From NCBI GenBank assembly GCA_019873655.1, contig JAIOAU010000002.1, positions 124,001 through 188,000 on the forward strand: a stretch of 64,000 nucleotides of DNA. Reading direction: 5' to 3'. A program made the position numbers and the translations under genes. Shown piece by piece: positions 1,022 to 64,000 of this stretch; the stretch's first letter is position 1; the number at the start of each line of letters is the position of its first letter. The notes under the pieces were generated by a model. It did not search any database and had not been told where the DNA came from. It saw only the letters and a program-made list of their open reading frames with translations. This DNA comes from Chloroflexota bacterium. GTDB lineage: Bacteria > Chloroflexota > Anaerolineae > Anaerolineales > Villigracilaceae.

Positions 1022-1948
1022 TCATGAGAGTGTGGTGATGATGGTCTGACGGGCCCCGGCGGACTGCAGGGCGGCGGCGACCGCCCCGGCGTTTTGCGGC
1101 TCGACCAGCGCGACCATGTTCCCCCCGCGCCCTCCGCCGCTCATCTTCGCCCCCAGCGCCCCGGACCCGCGGGCGGCGTCCACCAACCGGTCCAGTTCGG
1201 CGCTGGAGACGGTCAACTCTTGCAGGAGCGTGTGATTATCGTCCATCAGCGCGCCCAGCAGACGCCAGTCGCCCCGCTCGAGGGCGCTGCGCGCCGCCCG
1301 GACAATTTCCCCGATCTGGTCGAAGACCCGCTCCCAGCGCTGCGGATCGGCCTCCCAAAGCCTGCGGACGTCCGCGACCGATTCTTTTGTCGGCGCTGCA
1401 ACGCCCGTGTCGCCGATGACCAGCGTAAACGGCATTCCTACCTTTAGCCGCTCGATGGGCTGTCCCCGAACAAAGTACACCGCCTGGCCGTAGGTGATGA
1501 CCGTGTTGTCGATGCCCGAAGGCGTGCCGTGGTGCAATTTCTCGGCCTCGAAGGCCAGGGCGTTGACCTGTTCATCGGTCAGCGGCTGGCCCAGAAAGGC
1601 CGAAAGCGCCCGGATGACGGCCACGCTCACCGCCGCGCCGGAACCCAGGCCGGAGGCGACCGGAATGGTGGACCGAACGTGAACCGTGCAGTCGGGCGGG
1701 CGGGAGACGCCCAGGGCGGAGAACACGCTCCGGATGACGGCCGCCAGCGGCTGGTCGGGGGCGAGATCGGCCAGCGGGGCCGAGAGACCGACGTCCGGCG
1801 CTTTCACCCAGACCCCGCCGCGGGCGTCCGCGCCGACCGTCGCTGTCGCCTGCACCTGAGTCACCGGCGCGGCCAGGGCCGGGCGTCCGTAAACGACGGC
1901 GTGTTCGCCGAACAGGATGATCTTGCCGGGCGCGGAAGCAGTTGCCAT
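1022..1948 (-). CDS. mvk: Mevalonate kinase (GHMP family)
   Basis: This 308-residue protein phosphorylates mevalonate to 5-phosphomevalonate in the mevalonate route to isoprenoids (family knowledge). The N-terminus SAPGKIILFGEHAVVYG is the GHMP substrate-binding start. The glycine-rich ATP loop IPVASGLGSGAAV lies at residues 95-107, and the C-terminal GHMP motif GAKMSGGGRGGNMVALV is near the end. Length and motifs match short bacterial/archaeal mevalonate kinases. It begins 3 bp after the ubiA-type gene and is followed by the MFS gene 10 bp on, so the three are likely co-transcribed. HMG-CoA synthase and reductase lie about 53 kb away in the same window; later pathway enzymes (phosphomevalonate kinase or decarboxylases, IPP isomerase) were not found here. 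Confidence 0.92.
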   Translation of the reverse strand: MATASAPGKIILFGEHAVVYGRPALAAPVTQVQATATVGADARGGVWVKAPDVGLSAPLADLAPDQPLAAVIRSVFSALGVSRPPDCTVHVRSTIPVASGLGSGAAVSVAVIRALSAFLGQPLTDEQVNALAFEAEKLHHGTPSGIDNTVITYGQAVYFVRGQPIERLKVGMPFTLVIGDTGVAAPTKESVADVRRLWEADPQRWERVFDQIGEIVRAARSALERGDWRLLGALMDDNHTLLQELTVSSAELDRLVDAARGSGALGAKMSGGGRGGNMVALVEPQNAGAVAAALQSAGARQTIITTLS

Positions 1949-53809: not shown

Positions 53810-54208
53810 TTAGTTCATCACCGGCCGGAACTTGTAGCCGTAGATGAGAATACTGCGGTCGTCTCCATCCTGCCGCAGGCGGCGGGTGACCATCTCGACC
53901 GGCATGCCGATCTCGACCGGCTTGTCGCCCAGGTCGGTCAATTGCGCCGTGACCAGCGGACCTTCTTCCAGTTTGACCAGGGCGACGGTGTAAGGGGCTT
54001 TGTCCTCGAAGCCGGCCGGAGCCTCGTAGATGGTGGTGTACGAGTACACCTCGCCGCGCCCGCTGAAGGTGTAGGGCGTTCTGGCCTCGCCCCCGCAGTT
54101 CGGGCAGACATCGCGGGGCGGGAAGACTTTCACCTGGCAATGCGGACAAACTTCGCCGACCAACCCATACCGTTGTTGTTTGAGACGCCAATGGCGGGGA
54201 ATTTCCAT
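53810..54208 (-). CDS. Zn-ribbon/OB-fold (DUF35) acyl-CoA-associated protein
   Basis: A 132-residue protein. An N-terminal zinc ribbon (CPHCQVKVFPPRDVCPNCGG) is followed by an OB-fold ending LIYGYKFRPVMN. DUF35 proteins form complexes with thiolase-fold enzymes; in archaea they hold thiolase and HMG-CoA synthase together. It is the last gene of the minus-strand HMG-CoA cluster, 63 bp after the thiolase-like gene. Confidence 0.88.
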   Translation of the reverse strand: MEIPRHWRLKQQRYGLVGEVCPHCQVKVFPPRDVCPNCGGEARTPYTFSGRGEVYSYTTIYEAPAGFEDKAPYTVALVKLEEGPLVTAQLTDLGDKPVEIGMPVEMVTRRLRQDGDDRSILIYGYKFRPVMN

Positions 54209-54271: not shown

Positions 54272-55432
54272 TCAATCTGCGCGTTTCAGGACGTGGGTCA
54301 CGGCGGTGGAGGCTGGCCCGCCCAGGGCCTGGATGAGCGCGCAGCGGGCGTCGGGGATTTGATTCGCGCCGGCCTGGCCGCGCAGTTGCAGGGTCGCTTC
54401 GACGGCCTGATAGACGCCGGTCGCGCCGCCCGGGTTGCCGCGCGCCTTCAGCCCGCCCATCGTCGCGCAGGGGATCTTCCCCTGCAGACCGCTCTCTCCT
54501 TCGGCGGCCAGTTTCCAGCCCTGGCCGCGGGCGGCGAATCCGGCCGCCTCGAGCGACAGCGCGGCGTAGATCGAATAGGCGTCGTAATATTCGAACAGGT
54601 CGATTTGCTCGCGGCTCAGCCCGGCTTTTTTGAGCGCCTGTTCGACCGAAGCCTGGGCGGCGGCGAACCAGAGCGGCTCGGGGCGGTTGTGCAGCCCCAG
54701 CGTGTCGGAGACCGAGGCCGAGGCGGCGACTTGCACCACGGGGTGGGGGAAGTCCCTGGGGAGCCGGTCGCGGCGGGTCAGAATCAGGGCCGCCGCGCCG
54801 TCGGCGTTGGGGGCCAGGTCGAACAGGTTGAGCGGGTCGCTGACCATTTCGGCCTTTTGGTAGGCCTCCAGCGTGATGGCTTTGCGATACATCGCGTTGG
54901 GATTTCCGGCCCCGTTGGCGTGGGCGGTCAGGACGAAACCGGCCAGTCCGTCGGCGGGCAGGCCAAATTCGTGCTGGTAGCGGCGCATCAACAGGGCGGC
55001 CTGGGCGGCCGGAGTCAGCCCGTGGATGGCCTCGAAGTCGCTGTCGGTGGTGGTGGCAAGAGCGGCCTCGACTCCCGGACCGATCAGGTCGGTATATTTT
55101 TCGACGCCGACGACCAGAGCCACATCCACCAGGCCGCTGGCGACGGCCAGGTACCCCTGGCGGAGGGCGGCCGCGCCCGACGCCCCGGCTGCTTCGAGCG
55201 CCTCGGCCTCGATGCCGGCCAGCCCGCTGAAATCGGCCAGCAGCGTCCCTACATGGGCCTGGCGCGACAGGTTGGCGGCCAGCATATTGCCGGCGTAGAG
55301 CGCCTGCGGCTGCAGACCGCCGGAGTCTTTGATGGCGGCCCGGATGGCCCGCACGCCCAGCGAACGCAGCGACAGATCCCAGAATTCCCCGACCCGCGTT
55401 TGGCCGATTCCAGCGATGACAACTTCGGTCAT
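54272..55432 (-). CDS. Thiolase-fold protein lacking key catalytic residues
   Basis: A 386-residue thiolase-superfamily protein of the SCP-x/archaeal type. The nucleophile position reads EAAGASGAAA (Gly83) where thiolases have Cys; the GHP motif reads GNP (Asn333 in LKARGNPGGATG); and the usual HD of VHDAF reads YYDAY (Tyr283). Loss of Cys with a Tyr change resembles the Ltp2/DitF aldolase-like group that also pairs with DUF35. It might thus be an aldolase-like enzyme or a structural partner, not an acetoacetyl-CoA thiolase. Gene context (HMG-CoA synthase upstream, DUF35 downstream) is the archaeal order. Confidence 0.8.
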   Translation of the reverse strand: MTEVVIAGIGQTRVGEFWDLSLRSLGVRAIRAAIKDSGGLQPQALYAGNMLAANLSRQAHVGTLLADFSGLAGIEAEALEAAGASGAAALRQGYLAVASGLVDVALVVGVEKYTDLIGPGVEAALATTTDSDFEAIHGLTPAAQAALLMRRYQHEFGLPADGLAGFVLTAHANGAGNPNAMYRKAITLEAYQKAEMVSDPLNLFDLAPNADGAAALILTRRDRLPRDFPHPVVQVAASASVSDTLGLHNRPEPLWFAAAQASVEQALKKAGLSREQIDLFEYYDAYSIYAALSLEAAGFAARGQGWKLAAEGESGLQGKIPCATMGGLKARGNPGGATGVYQAVEATLQLRGQAGANQIPDARCALIQALGGPASTAVTHVLKRAD

Positions 55433-55452: not shown

Positions 55453-56523
55453 TTATTTCATCCTGATCTTGCCGCGATAGCGGGCGTAGGCGGCGTAATC
55501 GATTTCGGTGCGGCGGGCGATGTAGTCCTGCGTTTTGAGGGCTTTGTCGCGCCGCTCGAGCAGTTTGTCGGTGACGACGATATCGAAGGCGTCGGAGCCG
55601 GCCCCGGAGCCGAACGAGACGACCAGGATGCGGTCGCCGGGGCGGGCGATGTCGAGGGTGGCGGTCAGGCCGATGATGGCCGCGCCGGCATAGGTGTTGC
55701 CGATGACGGGTGAGAGCAGGCCGGGGGCAATTTGCTCCGGCGAGAAGCCCAGCATTTGGGCGGCTTTTTGCGGGAATTTGGTGTTCGGTTGATGGAAGAT
55801 GGCCCAGGCGTAATCTTTGGCGCTCGTACCGGCGGCCTCCATCAGGGTCTTGCCCGCCTCGGTGATGTGCCGGAAGTAGGCCGGGTCGCCGGTGAAGCGC
55901 TGACCGTGTTCGGGGTAAATCTGGTGTTCGCGCCGCCAGAAGTCGGGGGTGTCGGTGACGAAGGAGTAGGAGGCGTTGATGACGGCCAGGCTCTCTTCGG
56001 CCGGGCCGATGATGAAGGCCGCTCCGCCGGCGGCGGCGGTGTACTCGAGGGCGTCGCCCGGTTTGCCCTGGGCGGTGTCCATGCCGATGGCGAGGGCGTA
56101 GCGGGCCATCGAGGAGCCGACCAGACCCATCGCCATGACCATCGCCTCTGTCCCTGCTTTGCAGGCGAACTCCATGTCGGCGGCCTGGACGTGCGGGGCG
56201 GCCCCGATCGCCTCGGCGACGATGGTCGAACTGGGCTTGACCGCGTAGGGGTGCGATTCGGAGCCGATCCAGACGGCTCGAATCTCGGCCGGGTCGATCT
56301 CGGCGCGTTTCATGGCGTTGCGCGCCGCCTCGATGGACATGGTGATGACGTCTTCGTCCAGGCCGGGCACGGCTTTTTCTTTGATCGGCAGTCCGGCGGC
56401 CCGTCCGCCCGTCCACATGCGGGCGACCTCTTTGGCGGGCAGGCGGTAGCGCGGCACGTAGGCGCCATAGCCGACGATTCCAACCGGCCGGGAGGGTTTG
56501 AGCAGGGTTTTGTTTTCGGTCAT
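55453..56523 (-). CDS. Hydroxymethylglutaryl-CoA synthase, archaeal-type
   Basis: A 356-residue HMG-CoA synthase that joins acetyl-CoA and acetoacetyl-CoA. The catalytic Glu89 is in [11 protein letters not shown], nucleophile Cys121 in [12 protein letters not shown], and the His is in [12 protein letters not shown]. Thus all three key residues are kept, unlike in the next gene. The protein starts [15 protein letters not shown], as in archaeal enzymes. It lies 39 bp after the 70-residue gene and 20 bp before the thiolase-like gene. Confidence 0.93.
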
Positions 56524-56776: not shown

Positions 56777-58054
<1,278 letters not shown>

Positions 58055-58313: not shown

Positions 58314-58600
58314 TCGATTTCTGAGTTGTGACAGAGGACTTTCGAAAGGAGACGGGGGACGGGAGAGTGGCGCTTCAATCCTGGATTGCGATCGCGGGTG
58401 TTCAAGACACATTGCTCCGCACGCCGCACCTGGCACGCTTGTAGTTTCAATCCCTCAATCGGGACAAAGGACGTTCGAATGGGGGACGGGAGACGGGAGA
58501 CGGGGTATGGGAGATGGGAGAAGGCGGCGTTTCAATTCCGGATTGCAATCGCGGGTGTTCAAGACACATTGCTCCGCACGCCGCACCTGGCACGCTTGTA
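58311..58600 (-). CRISPR. Decayed, duplicated trailer end of the CRISPR array
   Basis: Four degenerate repeats precede the intact array: 58311-58347 (about 25 of 37 bases match), 58372-58408 (both ends match, middle diverged), 58444-58480 (only the last bases differ, ending TTCGAAT), and 58529-58565 (close to the one at 58372). The spacers at 58409-58443 and 58566-58600 are identical (35 nt). The other two gaps (58348-58371 and 58481-58528) hold purine-rich GGGAGAC-like repeats. The layout is a duplication of a two-repeat block. Decay at this end marks it as the leader-distal (trailer) side. Confidence 0.8.
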
Positions 58601-61600
58601 GTTTCAATCCCTCAATCGGGACAAAGGACGTTCAAACGAGTACCTGCAAGCCATCACCACCATCAACAGCGTGGGTTTCAATCCCTCAATCGGGACAAAG
58701 GACGTTCAAACTTCGACCCTGCGCAGGTTGTCATCGGTAAGATTGATGTTTCAATCCCTCAATCGGGACAAAGGACGTTCAAACCGGCGACTTCACCCCG
58801 TCTCGCCTGTCAACAGACAGGTTTCAATCCCTCAATCGGGACAAAGGACGTTCAAACTATGTTATTCGTGTATGCGAGCGGGAGGCGTTTAGCACTGTTT
58901 CAATCCCTCAATCGGGACAAAGGACGTTCAAACTCTTCATGCAAACAAAAAACCCGAAGCCAGTCCGAGTTTCAATCCCTCAATCGGGACAAAGGACGTT
59001 CAAACATGTTTTTGCAATGTTCGCGCAGCGTTTACGTTGTAGTTTCAATCCCTCAATCGGGACAAAGGACGTTCAAACAAGGGTAGAAATTGGTTGTACG
59101 AGCGGGCGAAGGAAATGTTTCAATCCCTCAATCGGGACAAAGGACGTTCAAACGTTGAAACTGCCGAAAACAGACGAATAATCTTCGCCGAGTTTCAATC
59201 CCTCAATCGGGACAAAGGACGTTCAAACTCGTCTTCGACCCAGACGCCCGCGAGGCCGGAGAGAGTTTCAATCCCTCAATCGGGACAAAGGACGTTCAAA
59301 CCTGGCGAACTGTGGTGGGCGGCCCCTCTTCTGGCAGTTTCAATCCCTCAATCGGGACAAAGGACGTTCAAACCCATTTTCGCCATCCGGACGAAAGGGG
59401 GAACAGATAGTTTCAATCCCTCAATCGGGACAAAGGACGTTCAAACTCAGGGTAGGCATCGGGGTCGCGAATGTCAAAATCGGTTTCAATCCCTCAATCG
59501 GGACAAAGGACGTTCAAACGGATAGCGCGGCCACGATAGAGGCGCACATCGGGCGTTTCAATCCCTCAATCGGGACAAAGGACGTTCAAACGTATTCCTC
59601 GCCGGACACGCCGGACGTGACAAGATAGTTTCAATCCCTCAATCGGGACAAAGGACGTTCAAACCCGCTATTCAGAGCCAATTACAACGCGAACCAAAAT
59701 TGTTTCAATCCCTCAATCGGGACAAAGGACGTTCAAACCCACCCCCACGCTACCCCGTCAGGCCGGTCAGATAAGTTTCAATCCCTCAATCGGGACAAAG
59801 GACGTTCAAACATCCGAGATAGCGCTGTCAACAAGCGAATACCTCAAGGTTTCAATCCCTCAATCGGGACAAAGGACGTTCAAACAGTCGAGTTGCGCTG
59901 GGACGCTCTGAGAGGACAGGGTTTCAATCCCTCAATCGGGACAAAGGACGTTCAAACGCAGGCAGACAAAATTCCAGATTCGAGGAACCCTCAAGTTTCA
60001 ATCCCTCAATCGGGACAAAGGACGTTCAAACGGGAAGCGGGGGGGACAACGGGTTTGCCGGTTGGCAAGTTTCAATCCCTCAATCGGGACAAAGGACGTT
60101 CAAACCCCTCGAGGTGCCCGAGGAGATCGGGGAACTCAACGACGAAGTTTCAATCCCTCAATCGGGACAAAGGACGTTCAAACGCGTAAACTGTTCTGAA
60201 TCACACACACACACACATTGTTTCAATCCCTCAATCGGGACAAAGGACGTTCAAACGCGTGGATTACATTACTTGTACGTTAGTAGGCAGGGGTTTCAAT
60301 CCCTCAATCGGGACAAAGGACGTTCAAACCATTACTCCCTATCCTACCGCAACACCCGACTTGACGTTTCAATCCCTCAATCGGGACAAAGGACGTTCAA
60401 ACGAAGACGCCGAATATAGCGCATCATGTCCCAGCAAGTTTCAATCCCTCAATCGGGACAAAGGACGTTCAAACCGCGAGTTCGGCATTCAGAATTTCGA
60501 TGGTGTTCTCGTTTCAATCCCTCAATCGGGACAAAGGACGTTCAAACGTGGCGGGGCCATCCTGCTGGCGAAGGCGATGCAAGGTTTCAATCCCTCAATC
60601 GGGACAAAGGACGTTCAAACCTCCGCAGGCTGCTGCTGCGCCTCCAGCGGTGGACGGTTTCAATCCCTCAATCGGGACAAAGGACGTTCAAACCGGCGGA
60701 CGAACCGCCGAGAAAGGATGGGAGAGATAATGTTTCAATCCCTCAATCGGGACAAAGGACGTTCAAACCCGCGAGCGCAAAAAAGGAAGGAAGGGCTATT
60801 ATGTCGGGTTTCAATCCCTCAATCGGGACAAAGGACGTTCAAACAAGCCCTCGGGGCGCTCCTGCGCTTCCTGATGGACAAGTTTCAATCCCTCAATCGG
60901 GACAAAGGACGTTCAAACAATACGCCTTGCCCGCATTTTCGCACCACCCCGTTTCGTGGTTTCAATCCCTCAATCGGGACAAAGGACGTTCAAACGTCCT
61001 TTGACTTAAGATTGTCGCCATCGAGAGAAGGGTTTCAATCCCTCAATCGGGACAAAGGACGTTCAAACATTATCCTCGTGCCGTTTTGGTTGGTTGGCAA
61101 GCATGGTTTCAATCCCTCAATCGGGACAAAGGACGTTCAAACGTCGTCAAAAGTTGGAGGTCGAAGGTCGGATTAATGGTTTCAATCCCTCAATCGGGAC
61201 AAAGGACGTTCAAACGGGGCCGCCTTCGGCGTGTACCCATCCCACCGCGAGGTTTCAATCCCTCAATCGGGACAAAGGACGTTCAAACGCAACGATGGTG
61301 TATCAGCAGGTGGCGGCGGAGGCGTTTCAATCCCTCAATCGGGACAAAGGACGTTCAAACCCTGCGCCAACTCGATGACCTCCTTCTCGCTCAAATCGGT
61401 TTCAATCCCTCAATCGGGACAAAGGACGTTCAAACGGAAAACGCCGAGCGCCGTCCCGACGATGGAAATCTTGTTTCAATCCCTCAATCGGGACAAAGGA
61501 CGTTCAAACCCAGATAGCGCGAGGCCCGACAAGCGGGCGGTCGAAGTTTCAATCCCTCAATCGGGACAAAGGACGTTCAAACTCGCAAGAGACCCTGCCC

Positions 61601-64000
61601 CGGCCGAGGTTCTAAACGTTTCAATCCCTCAATCGGGACAAAGGACGTTCAAACCTATGACGGGGCGGGGAACGAAATTGACAATTCCGTTTCAATCCCT
61701 CAATCGGGACAAAGGACGTTCAAACTCCGGCGCGGCGAAATTGACCCAGGCGTGCCGCACCGGTTTCAATCCCTCAATCGGGACAAAGGACGTTCAAACA
61801 TGCCAGGGCGGAACTTGCGCGCGCCATCGAAATTCTCGTTTCAATCCCTCAATCGGGACAAAGGACGTTCAAACCAGGCCGCCAACCAGTCACGGGCAGG
61901 GGTGACCGGTTTCAATCCCTCAATCGGGACAAAGGACGTTCAAACCCCCATCCAGAATGCCAGTTGTAGCAAAACATAGGTGTTTCAATCCCTCAATCGG
62001 GACAAAGGACGTTCAAACTACTATGTCAAAGGCCGCTTGTATCACGTCTCCCTTGTTTCAATCCCTCAATCGGGACAAAGGACGTTCAAACACGACCCCG
62101 AGGGCGAGAGCGTTGTCGCGATGGCCGTTTCAATCCCTCAATCGGGACAAAGGACGTTCAAACTCACTGCTTTGACGCGCAATTGGCAGCGGTATTGGGT
62201 TTCAATCCCTCAATCGGGACAAAGGACGTTCAAACATAGTTCGCGCTCTTGTCGCTGACGGCGGTCGTCACGTTTCAATCCCTCAATCGGGACAAAGGAC
62301 GTTCAAACTTTCCTGGGCGGCGATTGACGTTGATGACGGCAGGGTTTCAATCCCTCAATCGGGACAAAGGACGTTCAAACCAAATCGACTGCCTTTTCGG
62401 GCTTGCGGCGCAGAACGCAGTTTCAATCCCTCAATCGGGACAAAGGACGTTCAAACGCGGGCAAGGAAATCGTCACGGTCATCCTTGACAAGGTTTCAAT
62501 CCCTCAATCGGGACAAAGGACGTTCAAACCGGTATTGCTGGCGGCCTGCGAGGTTGTCGTGCCGGTGTTTCAATCCCTCAATCGGGACAAAGGACGTTCA
62601 AACCTTCGAGGCTTGTTTGATGAAGCGAGACATGGCCTCGTTTCAATCCCTCAATCGGGACAAAGGACGTTCAAACATATGGGGCGAGGGCGGCTTCGGC
62701 CTCAGCCTTGACGTTTCAATCCCTCAATCGGGACAAAGGACGTTCAAACGCCTCGCTCAGGCTGCGAAGGAAAATGGCCAGGACGTTTCAATCCCTCAAT
62801 CGGGACAAAGGACGTTCAAACCTTGCAGGCGTACCACCGCGGGCGCATGAATCGGGCGGTTTCAATCCCTCAATCGGGACAAAGGACGTTCAAACCGCCA
62901 GCCGCTCCGCCTTCATCCCCGCTTCCAGGAACGCGTTTCAATCCCTCAATCGGGACAAAGGACGTTCAAACGTCATCCGGCTGGCGGCGATGCAGCGGCC
63001 GGATTTCGTTGTTTCAATCCCTCAATCGGGACAAAGGACGTTCAAACAGGAGAAATGGACGAGATTTGGAGTAAGGCGTTGGGTTTCAATCCCTCAATCG
63101 GGACAAAGGACGTTCAAACGCGGGTGGAATGACAGTCTTGCCGGTGGGTAATACAGTTTCAATCCCTCAATCGGGACAAAGGACGTTCAAACGGGCCGCG
63201 CGGCTCGAAGTCCTCCCGAATTTCGAGTGTTTCAATCCCTCAATCGGGACAAAGGACGTTCAAACACCAGCGCGGCGGTGCGCGCGGGGGTGGGAATATA
63301 GGTTTCAATCCCTCAATCGGGACAAAGGACGTTCAAACTCGACCACCCGTCTCTGGCAGTTACGCTCACAGAAAAGTTTCAATCCCTCAATCGGGACAAA
63401 GGACGTTCAAACTCGGGAGGGCTGCCATCGGTCGCTCCTTTTGAGAAGTTTCAATCCCTCAATCGGGACAAAGGACGTTCAAACTTTGAGACCTCCATCG
63501 CCTCGCGGAATGGGGAAACGGTTTCAATCCCTCAATCGGGACAAAGGACGTTCAAACATAAGTGGCTCATAATATGGGCGCACATTCTCGACGTTTCAAT
63601 CCCTCAATCGGGACAAAGGACGTTCAAACGGCGCAGGCGTCCATCCATGTCTACTTCCTGACTGTTTCAATCCCTCAATCGGGACAAAGGACGTTCAAAC
63701 GCGACGCCCGGCACGCCTTTACGGTTGAATACCTGGTGTTTCAATCCCTCAATCGGGACAAAGGACGTTCAAACTGTCTTTCAGCCACCACCAGCCCAGT
63801 AGAATACCCTGGTTTCAATCCCTCAATCGGGACAAAGGACGTTCAAACATGGGTCGTAGTGTATGCGTTTCCCGTCCGTGCTATGTTTCAATCCCTCAAT
63901 CGGGACAAAGGACGTTCAAACGTTTGGCTGACCGATTGTGGCCGTAATACCATCAGTTTCAATCCCTCAATCGGGACAAAGGACGTTCAAACGGTTCGTC
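58601..64000 (-). CRISPR. CRISPR array, 74 intact 37-nt repeats, continues past the window
   Basis: Seventy-four copies of one 37-nt repeat, starting GTTTCAATCCCTCAATC and ending AAAGGACGTTCAAAC on the plus strand, lie from 58601 to 63992, appearing identical on reading. Spacers are 34-41 nt, 73 complete plus one cut by the window end. The reverse complement ends in ATTGAAAC, the usual 8-nt 5' crRNA handle of many type I and III systems, so transcription is assigned to the minus strand with the leader right of 64000. No cas gene is in the window, so the type is undecided. Open frames through the array repeating FNPSIGTKDVQT are not genes. Confidence 0.97.

Follow-up and report, generated by a model that had tools for sequence, protein, structure and literature searches.

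The mevalonate operon and its thiolase-like protein

The window analyzed here is the whole 64-kb stretch of DNA and, judged from its sequence, the open reading frame at 54272-55432 encodes the thiolase subunit of an operon of the archaeal type (HMG-CoA reductase/HMG-CoA synthase/thiolase/DUF35). The following features are discussed below.

54272-55432, minus strand: thiolase-like protein without the nucleophile Cys (386 aa, ATG start; Pfam Thiolase_N and Thiolase_C_1)
55184-55186, minus strand: codon GGG of Gly83, at the nucleophile Cys position (Cys85 in 6ESQ)
54584-54586, minus strand: codon TAC of Tyr283, at the His position of the HD motif
54434-54436, minus strand: codon AAC of Asn333, at the His position of the GHP motif
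54998-55069, minus strand: Glu122/Pro141/Ala145 region (Thr122, Phe141 and Asn145 in Cys-intact homologs)
55453-56523, minus strand: HMG-CoA synthase, archaeal type (TIGR00748 555 bits, cut-off 353; 6esq_I 453 bits)
53810-54208, minus strand: DUF35/ChsH2-type bridging protein (OB_ChsH2_C and zf-ChsH2; best PDB match 6esq_E, 113 bits)
56777-58054, minus strand: HMG-CoA reductase, class II type (PF00368 370 bits; TIGR00532 431 bits)
1022-1948, minus strand: mevalonate kinase (TIGR00549 271 bits, cut-off 163)

On the minus strand, the HMG-CoA reductase gene comes first, followed by those for HMG-CoA synthase, the thiolase-like protein and, directly downstream of the latter, the DUF35 protein, which carries four zinc-ribbon cysteines (21, 24, 35 and 38). 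The HMG-CoA synthase/thiolase/DUF35 order pointed out in the first-pass annotation is found here and is conserved in most relatives. The mevalonate kinase gene lies ~53 kb from the operon, inside the same window, and is adjoined by a gene for a UbiA-type prenyltransferase (the pair covers 1022-2821) whose best NCBIfam match is decaprenyl-phosphate phosphoribosyltransferase. Directly upstream of the mevalonate operon is a very large CRISPR-like array (58444-64000, reaching the end of the window), with more than 70 copies of the 37-nt repeat GTTTCAATCCCTCAATCGGGACAAAGGACGTTCAAAC at a spacing of ~73 nt.

All three complex proteins match the Methanothermococcus thermolithotrophicus complex (6ESQ/6ET9); for each, a 6ESQ chain ranks first or second among the PDB matches by sequence. 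When the thiolase-like protein was modeled with AlphaFold2 (pLDDT 90), the best structural match was 6esq_A (Z 60, rmsd 1.5 Å over 383 residues, 36% identity). The protein nevertheless scores below the NCBIfam curated cut-offs (373.7 vs 420 bits for PRK06064 and 312 vs 600 bits for AcCoTHIOL_METTL), whereas an intact solo copy in the same genome, with 446 bits, lies above the PRK06064 cut-off.

When the protein was aligned to 6ESQ, 7YVY, BbsB and ST0096, it read EAAGASG where the references show EAACASG, and in the same alignment the HD motif was YD (Tyr283) and the GHP motif GNP (Asn333). The alignment and the codons agree with the first-pass annotation on all three replacements and their coordinates. 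Tyr283 is a local variant, since most relatives have His at the HD position. A shifted nucleophile is ruled out: C322 and C364 are the only cysteines of the protein. The neighboring HMG-CoA synthase retains its catalytic Glu89, Cys121 and His244, so the earlier statement that this enzyme is intact also held when these residues were read.

Loss of the catalytic residues across Chloroflexota

We found 146 distinct Cys-less cluster thiolases in Chloroflexota, with Gly (113), Asp (19), Glu (7), Ser (3), Gln (2), Asn (1) or Ala (1) at the Cys position. The HMG-CoA synthase encoded beside them had Glu, Cys and His in all 137 readable cases. Named loci that were fetched were Cys-less in 80/80 cases, nearly all of them from Anaerolineales and including Leptolinea tardivitalis YMTK-2 and Anaerolinea thermolimosa IMO-1. 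Among the Anaerolineales members read, loss of Cys83 was universal and loss of His333 near-universal, the one exception (L274) having Asp83 but GHP. Within the class Anaerolineae, many families retain the Cys, which in others is replaced by Asp, Glu, Gln, Ser, Ala or Gly. All 16 loci fetched from other Chloroflexota classes were Cys-less, most of them with S/T/C-D-P-H and ARGD motifs. The DUF35 partners at loci outside Anaerolineae (L259-L273) mostly lack the four zinc-ribbon cysteines. Since the Cys is missing across many independent genomes, both chance and a sequencing error are ruled out.

In the family to which the window belongs, the cluster copy is present in 51 of 61 genomes (61-90% identity outside its own genome) and a second, solo archaeal-type copy in 53 of 61 (~45-51% identity). 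All cluster copies read were Cys-less and all solo copies read had Cys, HD and GHP. A solo thiolase-like protein in another genome (L143 in G105) has Thr at the Cys position and sits on a long branch; the cluster copy of that genome is also Cys-less. The HMG-CoA synthase and Cys-less genes remain near neighbors even where the DUF35 gene has been relocated. The latter lies far from the pair in G057, G044, G007 and G053 (L174, L175, L168 and L176; 75-78% identity), and in G057, a single-contig genome, it is megabases away. The Cys-less gene was found in 51/52 family genomes with HMG-CoA synthase and 0/9 without, but this co-occurrence was set aside as evidence because operon linkage and assembly gaps confound it.

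The Cys was taken as ancestral because archaeal outgroups have it. On the HMG-CoA synthase tree of Anaerolineae, the Cys/non-Cys state requires at least nine changes, and Cys-less families group with Cys-intact ones with good support (f21 with f4, f37 with f5, f17 with f27, f12 with f24, and f40 with f36/f41). A quick thiolase tree, for which pocket columns were masked and Cys-intact archaeal sequences served as outgroups, requires at least six changes and still places f37 beside f5. These six to nine changes are a parsimony count rather than proven events, some of which gene replacement could explain. On these trees, the catalytic residues of Chloroflexota cluster thiolases are reconstructed as lost several times over.

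As a reference for what decays, we used the 103 columns conserved at 95% or more among 93 Cys-intact homologs. Both Cys-less groups keep 68 of them at 90% or more, and 13 representatives of separate Cys-less families have lost 5-16 each, mostly the same ones. The columns mainly lost outside Anaerolineales are C83, F141, N145, H333, T122, A285, V335 and A128. The replacements at lost columns differ between lineages, which is what a site freed from selection would be expected to show. Families f12, f39 and f17 have lost the Cys and retained H333. Family f24 holds possible intermediates, one with the Cys but with T122, F141, N145 and H333 replaced (L079) and another with the Cys and GNP (L088). 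Within the genus, pairwise dN/dS of the thiolase-like gene is 0.07-0.21, close to the 0.06-0.12 of HMG-CoA synthase; together with the full-length open frames, these values rule out a pseudogene. In these comparisons the protein body is held by selection and the active site is released from it.

The isoprenoid route and the proposed role of the Cys-less subunit

IspG, the marker used for the MEP route, was detected in none of the 61 family genomes, while controls were detected, and mevalonate kinase is present alongside intact HMG-CoA synthase and reductase. With IspG absent and mevalonate kinase present, the pathway must work, and mevalonate is probably the sole isoprenoid route of the family. 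Since IspG is in no family genome, the nine genomes without both HMG-CoA synthase and the Cys-less gene probably miss the contig. The class Chloroflexi is described as having no MEP (DXP) pathway, and lower mevalonate steps have been shown in Roseiflexus castenholzii (eLife 2013, PMC3857490).

The search for intact Cys-His thiolases that the first-pass annotation had proposed returned two in the same genome, an archaeal-type one with CGSG, HD and GHP sited away from the operon (L002) and a canonical one (L161). None of the Cys-less genomes tested lacked a canonical thiolase above the TIGR01930 cut-off; these were 59 genomes in which the residue had been read and a further 14 family members for which the cluster copy had not been read one by one. 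Of 65 Cys-intact genomes, 11 had no such thiolase. The association gave a Fisher p of 0.0007 on the 59 genomes with relatedness ignored; by family, it was 14/14 for Cys-less and 21/27 for Cys-intact (p = 0.08).

We consider it likely that the protein is a pseudo-thiolase that persists in the synthase complex for its structural contribution to the CoA site, acetoacetyl-CoA coming from outside. Its ancestor would be the acetoacetyl-CoA thiolase found in archaeal-type complexes with HMG-CoA synthase and DUF35, and Claisen and thiolysis chemistry would no longer be possible in it. It would be retained because the HMG-CoA synthase still requires a thiolase-shaped partner. With a fused CoA site held by DUF35, removal of the thiolase body would harm the CoA site or the stability of the synthase. 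A separate intact thiolase would make acetoacetyl-CoA, and because this would reach the synthase from solution, the original channel would no longer serve the first reaction. We infer that the complex forms, that the subunit has a structural role and that acetoacetyl-CoA has this source. The structural-partner idea draws on the CoA site that thiolase and synthase share in the archaeal complex and on the inactive PhlA still needed by PhlACB, as set out in the published accounts discussed below. A dead scaffold supplied from elsewhere was one of the two readings offered in the first-pass annotation. This reading is supported by loss of the same set of catalytic residues in several lineages, purifying selection, intact thiolases elsewhere, intact HMG-CoA synthase, HMG-CoA reductase and mevalonate kinase, and the lack of an MEP pathway marker.

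Some observations argue against this structural role. The residues Q144, F256, Y289 and P373, which are new and near-invariant in Anaerolineales, may reflect a new function instead of packing. Conservation-based interface mapping found only seven complex-specific positions separating cluster from solo copies, a weak signal, and the canonical-thiolase association weakens at the family level, as given above. The near-invariant residues would also fit a site re-purposed for another CoA-thioester reaction (retro-aldol, as in Ltp2 or Sal, or decarboxylation) with a different product or substrate, as would the W145/D333 shared by Chloroflexia-type copies, a DUF35 partner like that of Ltp2 and Sal, and the precedent of CtSal, which works as an aldolase although Gly occupies its Cys position (PMC12329534). 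We regard such a re-purposed site as quite improbable, since no catalytic residue set is common to the Cys-less lineages, the best relatives are archaeal acetoacetyl-CoA thiolases and the operon partners are intact HMG-CoA synthase and reductase. The catalytic dyads are Tyr294 and Tyr344 in Ltp2 and Tyr302 and Cys304 in Sal (PMC12329534), and neither the Tyr/Tyr nor the Tyr/Cys dyad is present in the window protein or in any of the 146 relatives. An Ltp2-like aldolase was rejected on these dyads, the window protein having Y283 with N333 and A285, where the placement of Ltp2 Tyr344 at column 333 rests on a pairwise alignment. The other earlier reading, a likeness to Ltp2/DitF aldolases or a cluster with a different product, is not supported: the closest proteins are those of 6ESQ and 7YVY, and Tyr283, a minority residue, is not conserved.

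A ligand-sensing or regulatory subunit, in which acetyl-CoA or CoA bound in the old active site tunes HMG-CoA synthase, would agree with the retention of the overall fold, the Pfam domains and most conserved columns, and with the acidic residues that often replace the Cys outside Anaerolineales. It is nonetheless unlikely, as the pocket residues vary both between and within lineages, a pattern more in keeping with lost constraint than with ligand binding at a conserved site. Alternatively, the Cys-less protein and the intact solo thiolase (49% identical) could form a mixed dimer or tetramer in which a live thiolase site remains. The wide presence of the solo copy in the family, intact wherever it was read, including in the genome of the window, would allow this. 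However, six HMG-CoA synthase-positive family genomes showed no full-length solo copy, many Cys-less families outside that of the window show one copy only, and the solo copy L002 is sited away from the operon, making a mixed oligomer very unlikely.

Comparison with known complexes

The archaeal 6ESQ complex has the same gene set, and the window subunit fits 6esq_A, but in contrast to the 6ESQ thiolase it lacks the Cys, the GHP His and the HD His, so that neither the first reaction nor the channel described for that complex can operate in it. The closest solved sequence, the Pyrococcus furiosus thiolase PFC_04095 (7YVY; 330 bits, full length), likewise differs from the window protein in having Cys, HD and GHP intact. 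According to the published accounts, thiolase and HMG-CoA synthase of the archaeal complex share one CoA site and DUF35 joins them (PMC12329534, PMC6392133). That complex has been described as a machine in which acetoacetyl-CoA is handed from thiolase to HMG-CoA synthase through the fused CoA site.

There is about an even chance that, in much of Chloroflexota, the mevalonate pathway relies on a DUF35 complex in which the thiolase is a dead but obligatory part of HMG-CoA synthase. If so, the losses in several lineages would mean that what holds the complex together is the common CoA site and assembly rather than substrate channeling. They amount to a large natural experiment that separates channeling from assembly, the first active site being repeatedly destroyed and the gene set retained, and related bacteria provide matched living and dead complexes for comparison. 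In these mevalonate operons, the product of the gene labeled as encoding a thiolase or an acetyl-CoA acetyltransferase probably does not make acetoacetyl-CoA, and the misleading annotation touches pathway models and any engineering that copies the operons. A Cys-less thiolase in such an operon was not found described in the literature searched, which is not proof of novelty.

The Ltp2-ChsH2(DUF35) and Sal-Shy(DUF35) aldolases (6OK1, 9MYR) likewise pair DUF35 with a thiolase fold without the nucleophile Cys, but they are more distant from the window protein in sequence and fold (Z 48 vs 60). PhlACB/PpATase (5M3K), a Friedel-Crafts acylase, has the same subunit plan and also retains one catalytically inactive partner for assembly (PMC6392133). 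This partner, PhlA, is an HMG-CoA synthase-like subunit with Gly115 in place of the Cys, non-catalytic but required by the PhlACB complex (PMC6392133). The two are mirror images: PhlACB has an inactive HMG-CoA synthase-like PhlA and an active thiolase PhlC, whereas the window has an inactive thiolase and an intact HMG-CoA synthase. The genome of the window also encodes a second HMG-CoA synthase-like/thiolase-like/DUF35 triple (L003, 262-3056) that is closest to PhlA and PhlC; its HMG-CoA synthase-like protein lacks the Cys (Asp), the Glu (Gly) and the His, and its thiolase-like protein retains the Cys and HD. Both kinds of half-dead complex thus seem to be encoded in this one genome.
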